Part shown: positions 19,199 to 52,361 of the stretch, piece after piece
Layout of the letters: every line of letters starts with the position of its first letter
How positions within the stretch are numbered: position 1 is the stretch's first letter
Assembly (NCBI RefSeq): GCF_001989615.1
Contig: NZ_CP019067.1
Coordinates: 2,480,001-2,544,000 of the forward strand
DNA: 64,000 bases
Source: Halorientalis sp. IM1011
GTDB taxonomy: Archaea > Halobacteriota > Halobacteria > Halobacteriales > Haloarculaceae
Direction: 5' to 3'
Notes under the pieces: model-generated
What the model saw: the letters and a program-made list of their open reading frames with translations, nothing else
What the model was told of the DNA's origin: nothing
The model's database searches: none
Position numbers and translations under genes: made by a program

Positions 19199-19900
19199 GT
19201 GTTCGCAGTCGACCTCCACACGCATACGCGGTCGTTTCACGGGTTCGAGTCGCGACCCACGCCCGCCGACCCCGTGGGCGCGAGAGCGCTGGCCGCGGTC
19301 GCACGCTACCGCGGTCTCGACGGCCTCGCCTTCACCAACCACGACTACGCCGTCGACTACGCGGTCCCCGGACTCGTCACCATTCCCGGCATCGAGGTGT
19401 CGACCGCCCGCGGCCACGTCCTCGTGATCGGACCGGACCCGCCCGCCGCGACGAAGGTCGGCGGGATGGACCCCGCGGAGGTCGTCGACCTGGCCCACGA
19501 CCGCGACTGCGTTGCGATCGTCGCCCATCCCTACCGCAACAGCACGGTCCGGGAGGTCGAGGCCCCCTTCGACGCCATCGAGATCAACGGCAAACACCCC
19601 CGGACGCGGAACTGGGTCGAGCGCCTCGCCGAGGCCCACGACCTCCCCATCGTCGGCGGTAGCGACGCCCACTACGCCTTCGAGGTCGGCCGCGCACACA
19701 CGCTCGTCGACGCAGACCGACTCACGCCCGCGGCGGTCGTCGACGCCATCCGCGACGGGCGGGTCGCCCCGCGGATCGACACCTGGCTTCCCCACCGACT
19801 GCTCCGGACCTTCTACCGTCGGATCCACTCGGAGAAGGGCCACCTGACCGAACCCGAGTGGACCACACCCGGTGTCGGAGCACCACCCGGGGAGGAGTGA
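19199..19900 (+). CDS. PHP-domain phosphoesterase-like protein
   Basis: A 233-residue polymerase-and-histidinol-phosphatase (PHP) protein. Metal motifs are complete: DLHTHT (5-10), FTNHD, GIEVS, AHPYR and GGSDAHY. Such proteins hydrolyse small phosphoesters; the substrate is not known. The start is GTG 19199, just before the FAVDLHTHT strand, with no in-frame ATG nearby. The short divergent region (91 bases) shared with the lipid kinase has room for leaderless promoters in both directions. Confidence 0.88.
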   Translation: MFAVDLHTHTRSFHGFESRPTPADPVGARALAAVARYRGLDGLAFTNHDYAVDYAVPGLVTIPGIEVSTARGHVLVIGPDPPAATKVGGMDPAEVVDLAHDRDCVAIVAHPYRNSTVREVEAPFDAIEINGKHPRTRNWVERLAEAHDLPIVGGSDAHYAFEVGRAHTLVDADRLTPAAVVDAIRDGRVAPRIDTWLPHRLLRTFYRRIHSEKGHLTEPEWTTPGVGAPPGEE

Positions 19901-50299: not shown

Positions 50300-50836
50300 A
50301 TGCCACGCACAGAACTCGAAATTCCGGACGAGGTAAGCGCCGAGATGGACCATCTCGACCTCAGCGTCGAGGGTCCCAACGGCAGTGTGACGCGCCGGCT
50401 CTGGTACCCGGACGTCGACGTCTCCATCGAGGATGGCGCGGTCGTCATCCAGAGCGAGAACGACGACGCCAAGACGAACTCGACGCTCGGCACCTTCGAG
50501 AGTCACGTCAGGAACATGTTCCACGGCGTGACCGAGGGCTGGGAGTACGAGATGGAAGTCTTCTACTCTCACTTCCCGATGAAGGTCCGCGTCGAGAACG
50601 ACGAGGTCGTCATCGAGAACTTCCTCGGCGAGAAAGCGCCCCGGCGGACCACCATCCACGGGGACACCGAGGTCAGCGTCGACGGCGAGGAACTGACCCT
50701 GACGGGCTCGGACATCGAGGCCGTCGGCCAGACCGCCGCCGACATCGAACAGCTCACCCGGGTCAAGGACAAGGACATCCGGGTGTTCCAGGACGGCGTC
50801 TACATCACCGCGAAACCGAACCGAGGTGAGGCCTGA
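50300..50836 (+). CDS. rpl6: Ribosomal protein uL6
   Basis: 178 residues with the duplicated uL6 domain (second copy: [81 protein letters not shown]). It lies near the GTPase centre. Its TGA shares one base with the eL32 ATG. Confidence 0.96.
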
Positions 50837-51915
50837 TGACAGAAGACGAAGACAAGAGCAGAGAGGGACGTGGTGAGGACGCTCACAACGACGAACTCGA
50901 AGAGGAAGTCGCCGCCGAAGACGACGCCACGCAGGTCGACGAGGAAGAACTCGCCGGCGACGCCGCCGAGCGTGAGCAGGCTGGCGACGACGAACTGACC
51001 GACATCGCGGGCGTCGACACCCAGACCGCTGCGACCCTTCGCGGGGCCGGCTACGAGACGACCGACGACCTCGCGGAGGCGAGTCAGGACGACCTGACCG
51101 ACATCGAGGGCATCGGCAACGCACTGGCGGCCCGCATCGAGGCCGAGGTCGGCGACGTGGAAGTCGACGACGAGACCGACGCGGAGGTCGAAGGCGACGA
51201 CTCGGCGGCCGAGGAGGCCGACGAGACCTACGACGACCTGACCGACATCAGCGGCGTCGGCGACTCGAAGGCGGCCGCGCTGGAAGGCGAAGGCTACCGG
51301 ACGGTCGACGACGTTCGCGGTGCGAGCCAGGACGACCTGTCCGAAGTCGACGGCATCGGCAACGCGCTGGCGGCCCGCATCAAGGCGGACGTGGGCGGAC
51401 TCGAAGTCAGCGAGGAGACCGAGGCCGAAGTCGAAGACGAGTCGCCCGAACCAGAGGAGGCCGAGGACGTCGAGACGGAACTCCAGGCCCGCGGGCTGAC
51501 CGAGAAGACGCCGGACCTCTCCGAGAACGAGCAGCGGCTCCTTAACCAGCGGGGACGCGAAGGCAAACCGCAGTTCAACCGCCAGGACTACCACAAGAAA
51601 AAGCGGGTGCCCACCTCGTGGCGTCGCCCACGCGGCCAGCTCTCGAAGCAGCGCCGCGGCATCAAGGGCAAAGGCGACACGGTTCAGGCCGGGTTCCGCA
51701 CCCCGAAAGCGGTTCGGGGCAAACACCCGAGCGGCTTCGAGGAGGTTCGCGTCCACAACGTGGACGACCTCGAAGGCGTCGACGGCGACCGCGAGGCGGT
51801 CCGGATCGCCTCGAAGGTCGGCGGCCGCAAGCGCGAACGCATCGAAGAGGAAGCCGAGGACCGCGGCGTGCGCGTCCTCAACCCCACCTACGTCGAAGTG
51901 GAGGTCGAAGAATGA
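50836..51915 (+). CDS. rpl32e: Ribosomal protein eL32 with two N-terminal helix-hairpin-helix modules
   Basis: 359 residues. The eL32 core is at about 220-350 ([65 protein letters not shown]). Ahead of it are two tandem HhH modules at about 52-104 and 133-184, offset by exactly 81 residues (LTDIAGVD...[30 protein letters not shown] and LTDISGVG...[30 protein letters not shown]). Haloarcula marismortui eL32 is about 240 residues with a single such part, so this one appears enlarged by an internal duplication. Acidic linkers join the modules. Confidence 0.95.
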
Positions 51916-52361
51916 CGGATCTGAGTGCACAGAAACGGCTCGCGTCGGACATCCTGGACGTCGGGAAGAACAAGATCTGGTTCGACCCCGAGGAGCAGGG
52001 CGAAATCGCCGACGCGATCACGCGCGAGGACGTTCGTGAACTGATCGACCAGGGCACGATCCAGTCCGAGGACGCGAAGGGCAACTCACGCGGCCGGGCC
52101 CGCGAGCGCGCCGAGAAGCGCGCCTACGGCCACCAGAAGAACGCCGGCTCCCGGAAGGGCAAGTCCGGCGGCCGCCAGGACCCCAAGGAGGACTGGGAGA
52201 GCCGCATCCGCGCACAGCGGAACCGGCTGCGCGAGATGCGAGACGACGGTGACCTGTCGAGTTCGGAGTACCGCGAGCTCTACGACCAGGCTGGCGGTGG
52301 CGAGTTCGACAGCGTCGCCGACATGGAGCGATTCATCGACAATCAGTACGGAGGCGAATGA
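51912..52361 (+). CDS. rpl19e: Ribosomal protein eL19
   Basis: 149 residues, helical eL19 ([112 protein letters not shown]). It forms an inter-subunit bridge. Overlaps eL32 by four bases. Confidence 0.96.

Follow-up and report, generated by a model that had tools for sequence, protein, structure and literature searches.

The closest described relatives of the protein studied here are the one-module eL32 proteins of haloarchaea, as represented by L32e of Haloarcula marismortui (1s72_Y/1jj2_X). The 240/241-residue H. marismortui sequence carries a helix-hairpin-helix (HhH) module at residues 13-73, and the chains resolved in its 50S subunit begin at residue 95 (residues 95-238 in 4v9f_Y and 95-236 in 1jj2_X), after this module, indicating that the single module is not modelled in the H. 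marismortui 50S structures. A newer haloarchaeal eL32 chain (9l94_Q) is 234 residues long.

In the window (the whole 64,000-nucleotide stretch of the Halorientalis sp. IM1011 chromosome analysed here), we identified an eL32 protein of 359 residues. Its core and proximal module are like those of the H. marismortui protein, with which it aligns over residues 122-359, whereas its distal module and long acidic tail have no counterpart in that protein of 241 residues. Two-module eL32 proteins of other haloarchaea share the architecture of two HhH2 modules, acidic linkers and core, but differ from the window protein in module offset and tail length, and their origins may be separate.

Tandem acidic HhH2 modules at a terminus of an RNA-binding protein are also present in AR1-AR2 of NusA, a bacterial transcription factor. 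NusA AR2 is described in PMC6614801 as a dual HhH whose binding partners are SuhB (Kd 94 nM) and the RNAP alpha CTD. This is a resemblance only, as the NusA repeats lie C-terminal to the S1-KH domains whereas the eL32 modules precede the core; the remainder of the two proteins is non-homologous, and the likeness may be merely that of a common fold. The same fold occurs in the N-terminal domain of RadA/Rad51 and in the HhH2 domains of Hel308/Hjm and XPF/Hef (Z 9-10), which are DNA-repair enzymes, in contrast to the eL32 module, which is acidic and borne on a ribosomal protein.

Identity and domain architecture of the window eL32

The eL32 gene occupies positions 50836..51915 of the window on the forward strand, and encodes 359 residues plus a stop codon. 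The Ribosomal_L32e profile (PF01655) matched residues 244-349 over its entire length (model positions 1-108 of 108) at 122.5 bits, against a curated Pfam cut-off of 25, and this was the single PF01655 match in a profile search of the whole 3.78 Mb genome (G000). The NCBIfam 50S L32e model PRK12766 gave 490 bits (cut-off 239), and phmmer recovered 1s72_Y at an E-value of 2.2e-112. The gene sits between those of uL6 (50303..50836, forward strand, from a predicted start; PRK05518, 261 bits, cut-off 184) and eL19 (51912..52361, forward strand; PRK08570, 204 bits, cut-off 131), with overlapping stop and start codons on both sides, in a ribosomal protein cluster in which L6, L19e, S8 and L18 all score above their cut-offs. 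The ATG of eL32 overlaps the uL6 stop codon and is closely preceded by GAGGTGA. The frame opens just two codons before this predicted ATG, indicating that the length of the protein is no start-site artefact and ruling out a wrong start codon as its cause. The closest eL32 among the matches listed was that of Halorientalis regularis (90% identity).

We divided the protein into six parts, all on the forward strand. An acidic N-terminal tail of 52 residues (residues 1-52, 50836..50991; 46% D/E, net charge -20) is of low confidence in the predicted model, with pLDDT of about 43-55. It is followed by the distal, extra HhH2 module (residues 53-112, 50992..51171; 94 bits with a module HMM, net charge -15), an acidic inter-module linker (residues 113-133, 51172..51234; pLDDT below 50 at residues 109-129), the proximal module of the ordinary haloarchaeal kind (residues 134-193, 51235..51414; 104 bits), and an acidic linker to the core (residues 194-226, 51415..51513; net charge -12, pLDDT below 50 at residues 192-210). 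The core itself (residues 227-359, 51514..51912) is basic, with a net charge of +7, and is 88% identical to the resolved H. marismortui chain, from which we infer that the protein probably joins the 50S subunit and sits there on 23S rRNA; a fold search with the core returned eL32 of other ribosomes. In the predicted model the modules are confident (pLDDT of about 87-94 for the distal and 83-92 for the proximal), the linkers are disordered (about 40) and the pTM is 0.27, suggesting that the modules are separate beads, with the placing of the parts not fixed by the model.

Both modules were independently recognised as HhH domains. The Pfam profile HHH_5 (PF14520; cut-off 27) scored 86.2 bits in two stretches of the protein, and 48.6 bits on each of the isolated copies, both above the cut-off. 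PRK12766, whose model of 238 positions describes the one-module form, likewise matched two stretches, so that the protein departs from a single-HhH form. The hairpins of such modules are marked by a G-h-G motif, which is present in three of the four hairpins here, hairpin 1 of the distal module reading GVD instead of GVG.

The two modules lie exactly 81 residues apart and share 37/61 residues in a local alignment, and a BLASTP comparison of distal with proximal copy gave an E-value of 4e-24 with 63% identity over 59 residues. The local alignment score is 238, whereas none of 2000 shuffled sequences scored above 84 (z 24.5), ruling out a chance or low-complexity repeat. In the DNA, 211 nucleotides at 50987-51197 recur at 51230-51440 with a spacing of 243 and 74% identity. 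The likeness runs on into the linkers, with ETDAEVEG after the first module and ETEAEVED after the second, indicating that the repeated unit is the module plus its tether.

These alignments and profiles bear out the preliminary description of an HhH duplication, at an offset of 81 residues (243 bases), ahead of a normal eL32 core, and its statement that relatives such as H. marismortui have one module also holds. The "two HhH units" that it saw repeated are nevertheless each a whole (HhH)2 module of two hairpins, giving four hairpins in all, and the proximal of the two is the normal haloarchaeal module, so that only the distal one is extra. The greater length that it noted relative to H. marismortui (359 versus about 240 residues) is correct. 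The growth from the 241 residues of the H. marismortui chain is made up both of a module plus linker of ~81 residues and of ~37 residues of acidic N-terminal tail; among the Halorientalis frames listed, H. regularis (the G005/L004 copy) is the only one besides the window to have this tail.

Distribution and conservation of the extra module

We scanned 341 haloarchaeal eL32 loci, a partly redundant set in which some genomes recur and some loci are cut by contig ends, with the module HMM. This identified 258 loci with one module, 81 with two and two with four; none lacked a module. The presence of at least one module in 341/341 loci indicates that the proximal copy is the normal haloarchaeal one.

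Of 391 genomes sampled evenly across the class, 388 gave a match, and at least two modules were present in 39/388; within the family to which the window belongs they were present in 49/142 genomes with a match. Haloferax volcanii has one module. These counts derive from HMM scans of every genome with an open frame of at least 270 residues, the others being scanned or scored as single by frame length, and the shortest complete two-module frame seen was of 302 residues; module calls are unsafe for five genomes, of which G134, G342 and G365 have loci that are partial or lie at contig ends, G399 has a split one and G448 one at a contig end. The preliminary description had reasoned that the duplication would be ordinary if most haloarchaeal eL32 proteins had two modules; such a majority is rejected by the 39/388 genomes of the class. 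A trait confined to this genome or genus is also rejected, by the 49/142 genomes of the family and by occurrences elsewhere: in f8 (g37 and g81), in f10 (g63, with Salinarchaeum) and, through single genomes of g60 and g79, in f4. Two-module proteins were found in Halorientalis regularis, Halovenus, Halorhabdus, Halomarina and Salinarchaeum, with the offset between modules ranging from 67 to 160 residues and linkers of very variable length. The two-module eL32 is thus a minority trait, though not a rare one.

We additionally noted three unusual forms. The two four-module proteins, in G437 (L183) and G391 (L184), both of genus code g4, have three degenerate modules in direct tandem, then a long acidic linker and a normal module; their tandem has a period of about 60 residues, almost no linker and a common KLGG/VLGG-type motif. 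In Halovenus salina, which has an intact eL32 copy at 19755, another eL32-like copy, which shares the two modules but has a frameshifted core, lies near the other end of the chromosome record (L186, G422:C1:3315800-3317700), and is perhaps an assembly overlap of the record ends, or a pseudogene. Finally, the eL32 match in L187 (G399, g3) is split over two frames, probably through a frameshift or an assembly error.

We pooled dN/dS from 19 pairs of relatives, which are non-independent and reuse some sequences. It was lowest in the proximal module (0.098), followed by the core (0.117), the distal module (0.137), the linker between proximal module and core (0.162) and the inter-module linker (0.335). 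The low distal value speaks against a module free to decay; judged by these sequence comparisons, the distal copy appears to be under purifying selection and the extra copy to be kept by selection, although purifying selection on a fold is no proof of function. Among 220 distinct single-module proteins, identity reaches 97% or more in 24/60 module columns. Nearly all of these positions are retained by the proximal copies of 62 two-module proteins, so strongly is this module conserved, and with them the surface typical of the family. The distal copies of the same 62 proteins have A13, L16, G20, G40, L45, A46 and R48 in at least 97%, and K50 in 76%. Conservation at G9, G42, D52, G54 and L56 is 56%, 53%, 50%, 47% and 40% in the distal copies, versus 90%, 98%, 100%, 100% and 94% in the proximal copies. 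The distal copy thus retains the residues expected of the fold, but often sheds those that are near-invariant in the proximal copy. It is also the more acidic, with a mean net charge per 60 residues of -13.3, against -9.7 for proximal and -9.8 for single modules.

Gains, losses and origins

The two-module trait is scattered over an operon tree of 82 tips, built with FastTree from 17 ribosomal-cluster proteins (3894 columns), in which tips were picked to include two-module genomes, and so are no random sample, and three tips have less than 60% of the columns. Parsimony over 81 tips (G448 being left out) needs a minimum of 12 changes at equal costs, or 15 with gains only. Single-module sisters occur inside or beside two-module clades (Halorientalis salina, G450 and G128); H. 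salina (G006) is nested inside two-module Halorientalis, and its single module is most simply explained as a loss. The distal copy is retained in 4/4 Halorhabdus-like (g6) tips and in 8/8 tips of g8.

Evidence on the number of origins comes from hairpin 2, which is two residues shorter in both modules of G444, G445 and G446 (g89/g90; one of the three has L100 as its named copy) and, by the same deletion, in the single modules of the sister genus, g11. We saw this deletion (ADVVGNALAAR-type) in every copy of the clade that was seen, in L154, L170, L176, L190 and L320 of g11 and in L149, L161 and L169 of g89 and g90; it takes away the G-h-G of hairpin 2. Its presence in both G444-G446 modules and in g11 indicates that the distal copy of this lineage arose from the local module, or was overwritten by gene conversion; on these sequences a local duplication in this lineage (or gene conversion), and several origins overall, are probable. 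The two modules of L063 are 88.1% identical in DNA, which suggests a recent duplication. The alternative of a single ancient origin, with a two-module class ancestor and loss of the distal copy from most lineages, would require 19 losses on the 81-tip tree and is contradicted in G444-G446 unless gene conversion occurred; we regard it as quite improbable, even though repeats readily undergo deletion between them. A module tree (121 modules of 60 columns, too little to separate one from multiple origins) with all 40 distal modules held as one clade had a p-AU of 0.597 and lay 7.0 log-likelihood units above the free quick search, a result that weakens the case for many origins, as the AU test does not reject one all-distal clade. 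Holding the g89/g90 modules with g11, a grouping that the AU test does not reject either, raised the likelihood by 13.5, a larger gain than that from the all-distal clade. Nearest-identity comparison of modules cannot tell the origins apart, because proximal modules evolve slowly in both cases. Overall, copy number has varied by gains and by at least one probable loss.

The single module extends beyond the haloarchaea. Of 27 further loci, seven, all outside the class, have one basic, Lys-rich module, 19 have none and one is haloarchaeal. The seven (L342-L346, L351 and L353, of families f17, f22 and f25 in the same phylum; E 5e-16 to 1e-12) have net charges of +3 to +7, indicating that the single module predates its acid-rich version in haloarchaea, and the basic form is possibly the pre-halophile state. 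Within the part of PMC7599335 that was available, Hikarchaeia are placed as sister to Haloarchaea and L32e is not mentioned; the lineages f17, f22 and f25 may be Hikarchaeia.

Possible roles of the distal module

We propose, with about as much belief as doubt, that the modules are mobile beads, of which the proximal one keeps an ancestral task and the distal one is an acidic accessory gained by tandem exchange, as opposed to a second rRNA clamp. The sequences show that haloarchaeal eL32 bears at its N-terminal end a small, acidically tethered HhH2 module, and that in this genome tandem duplication of module plus tether has given a core with two such beads in a row. The beads would be mobile on the ribosome surface and would not pack on each other. 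The proximal bead may retain the binding of rRNA or of a partner, and the distal bead may act mainly by protein contact or by bulk and charge, as do the NusA acidic repeats. Modules would likely be gained and lost when GC-rich acidic linkers, or the modules themselves, undergo unequal tandem exchange. Protein contact or bulk is suggested by the acidity of the distal copy, by its loss of hairpin glycines and by its likeness to NusA: the nearest non-eL32 PDB sequence to it is the NusA acidic repeat (E 2e-6), with isolated AR2 chains 1wcn and 2jzb at 2e-5, and Foldseek aligned 151 columns to NusA in 8y5l (E 4.7e-5).

The fold matches of the distal module speak against such an accessory bead, being mostly to DNA-binding proteins: helicase Hjm (Z 10.4), Hef, RadA, XPF and FANCM-FAAP24 were the best among the 50 best VIA-align matches, in which NusA was absent, and RadA also showed a weak sequence likeness in the PDB (E 8e-5). 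HhH2 modules are usually nucleic-acid binders, and the distal copy could, in line with the preliminary description and its suggestion of altered rRNA contacts through binding without sequence preference, be a further module binding rRNA or mRNA, strengthening or extending the rRNA contacts. R48 and K50 are kept as described, the Lys-rich outgroup modules fit an ancestral nucleic-acid role, and acidity is expected of any halophile protein, so that charge alone is no argument against such binding. We nonetheless consider this unlikely, as the distal copies are the most acidic, about half of the 62 have lost the hairpin glycines G9 and G42, hairpin 1 of the window copy itself reads GVD, and the crystal structures of H. 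marismortui contain no model of its single module. A neutral expansion, in which a tolerant N-terminal tail of eL32 grows by unequal exchange and the extra module is merely folded and soluble, would account for the patchy distribution, the single-module sisters, the variable linkers and offsets, the recent-looking copy in L063 and the four-module forms; it sits poorly with a distal dN/dS close to that of the core and far below that of the linker, and with the retention of the copy in all g6 and g8 tips, and we hold it to be somewhat unlikely. More speculatively, and with little expectation that it is right, the accessory beads might form a mobile acidic HhH2 arm on eL32 for NusA-like docking or spacing, recruiting a translation, assembly or transcription factor, with a bead number that evolution has altered repeatedly (one, two, four) and that tunes the coupling of the ribosome differently from lineage to lineage.

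No description of an HhH duplication in eL32 was found in the open-access literature searched; the duplication is a real but modest variant, neither unique nor the rule, and apparently undescribed in those papers. To our knowledge, ribosomal proteins seldom alter their domain make-up within a class; eL32, with its gene in a conserved ribosomal cluster, has one, two or four folded modules among close relatives, through probable losses and a probable independent gain. It is noteworthy for how freely the number of modules on a ribosomal protein varies among relatives. The job of the eL32 HhH module is approachable through close relatives that differ naturally in having one or two modules, for example Halorientalis salina and H. 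regularis, and if bead number changes nothing, eL32 would show cleanly that the ribosome tolerates repeat growth.
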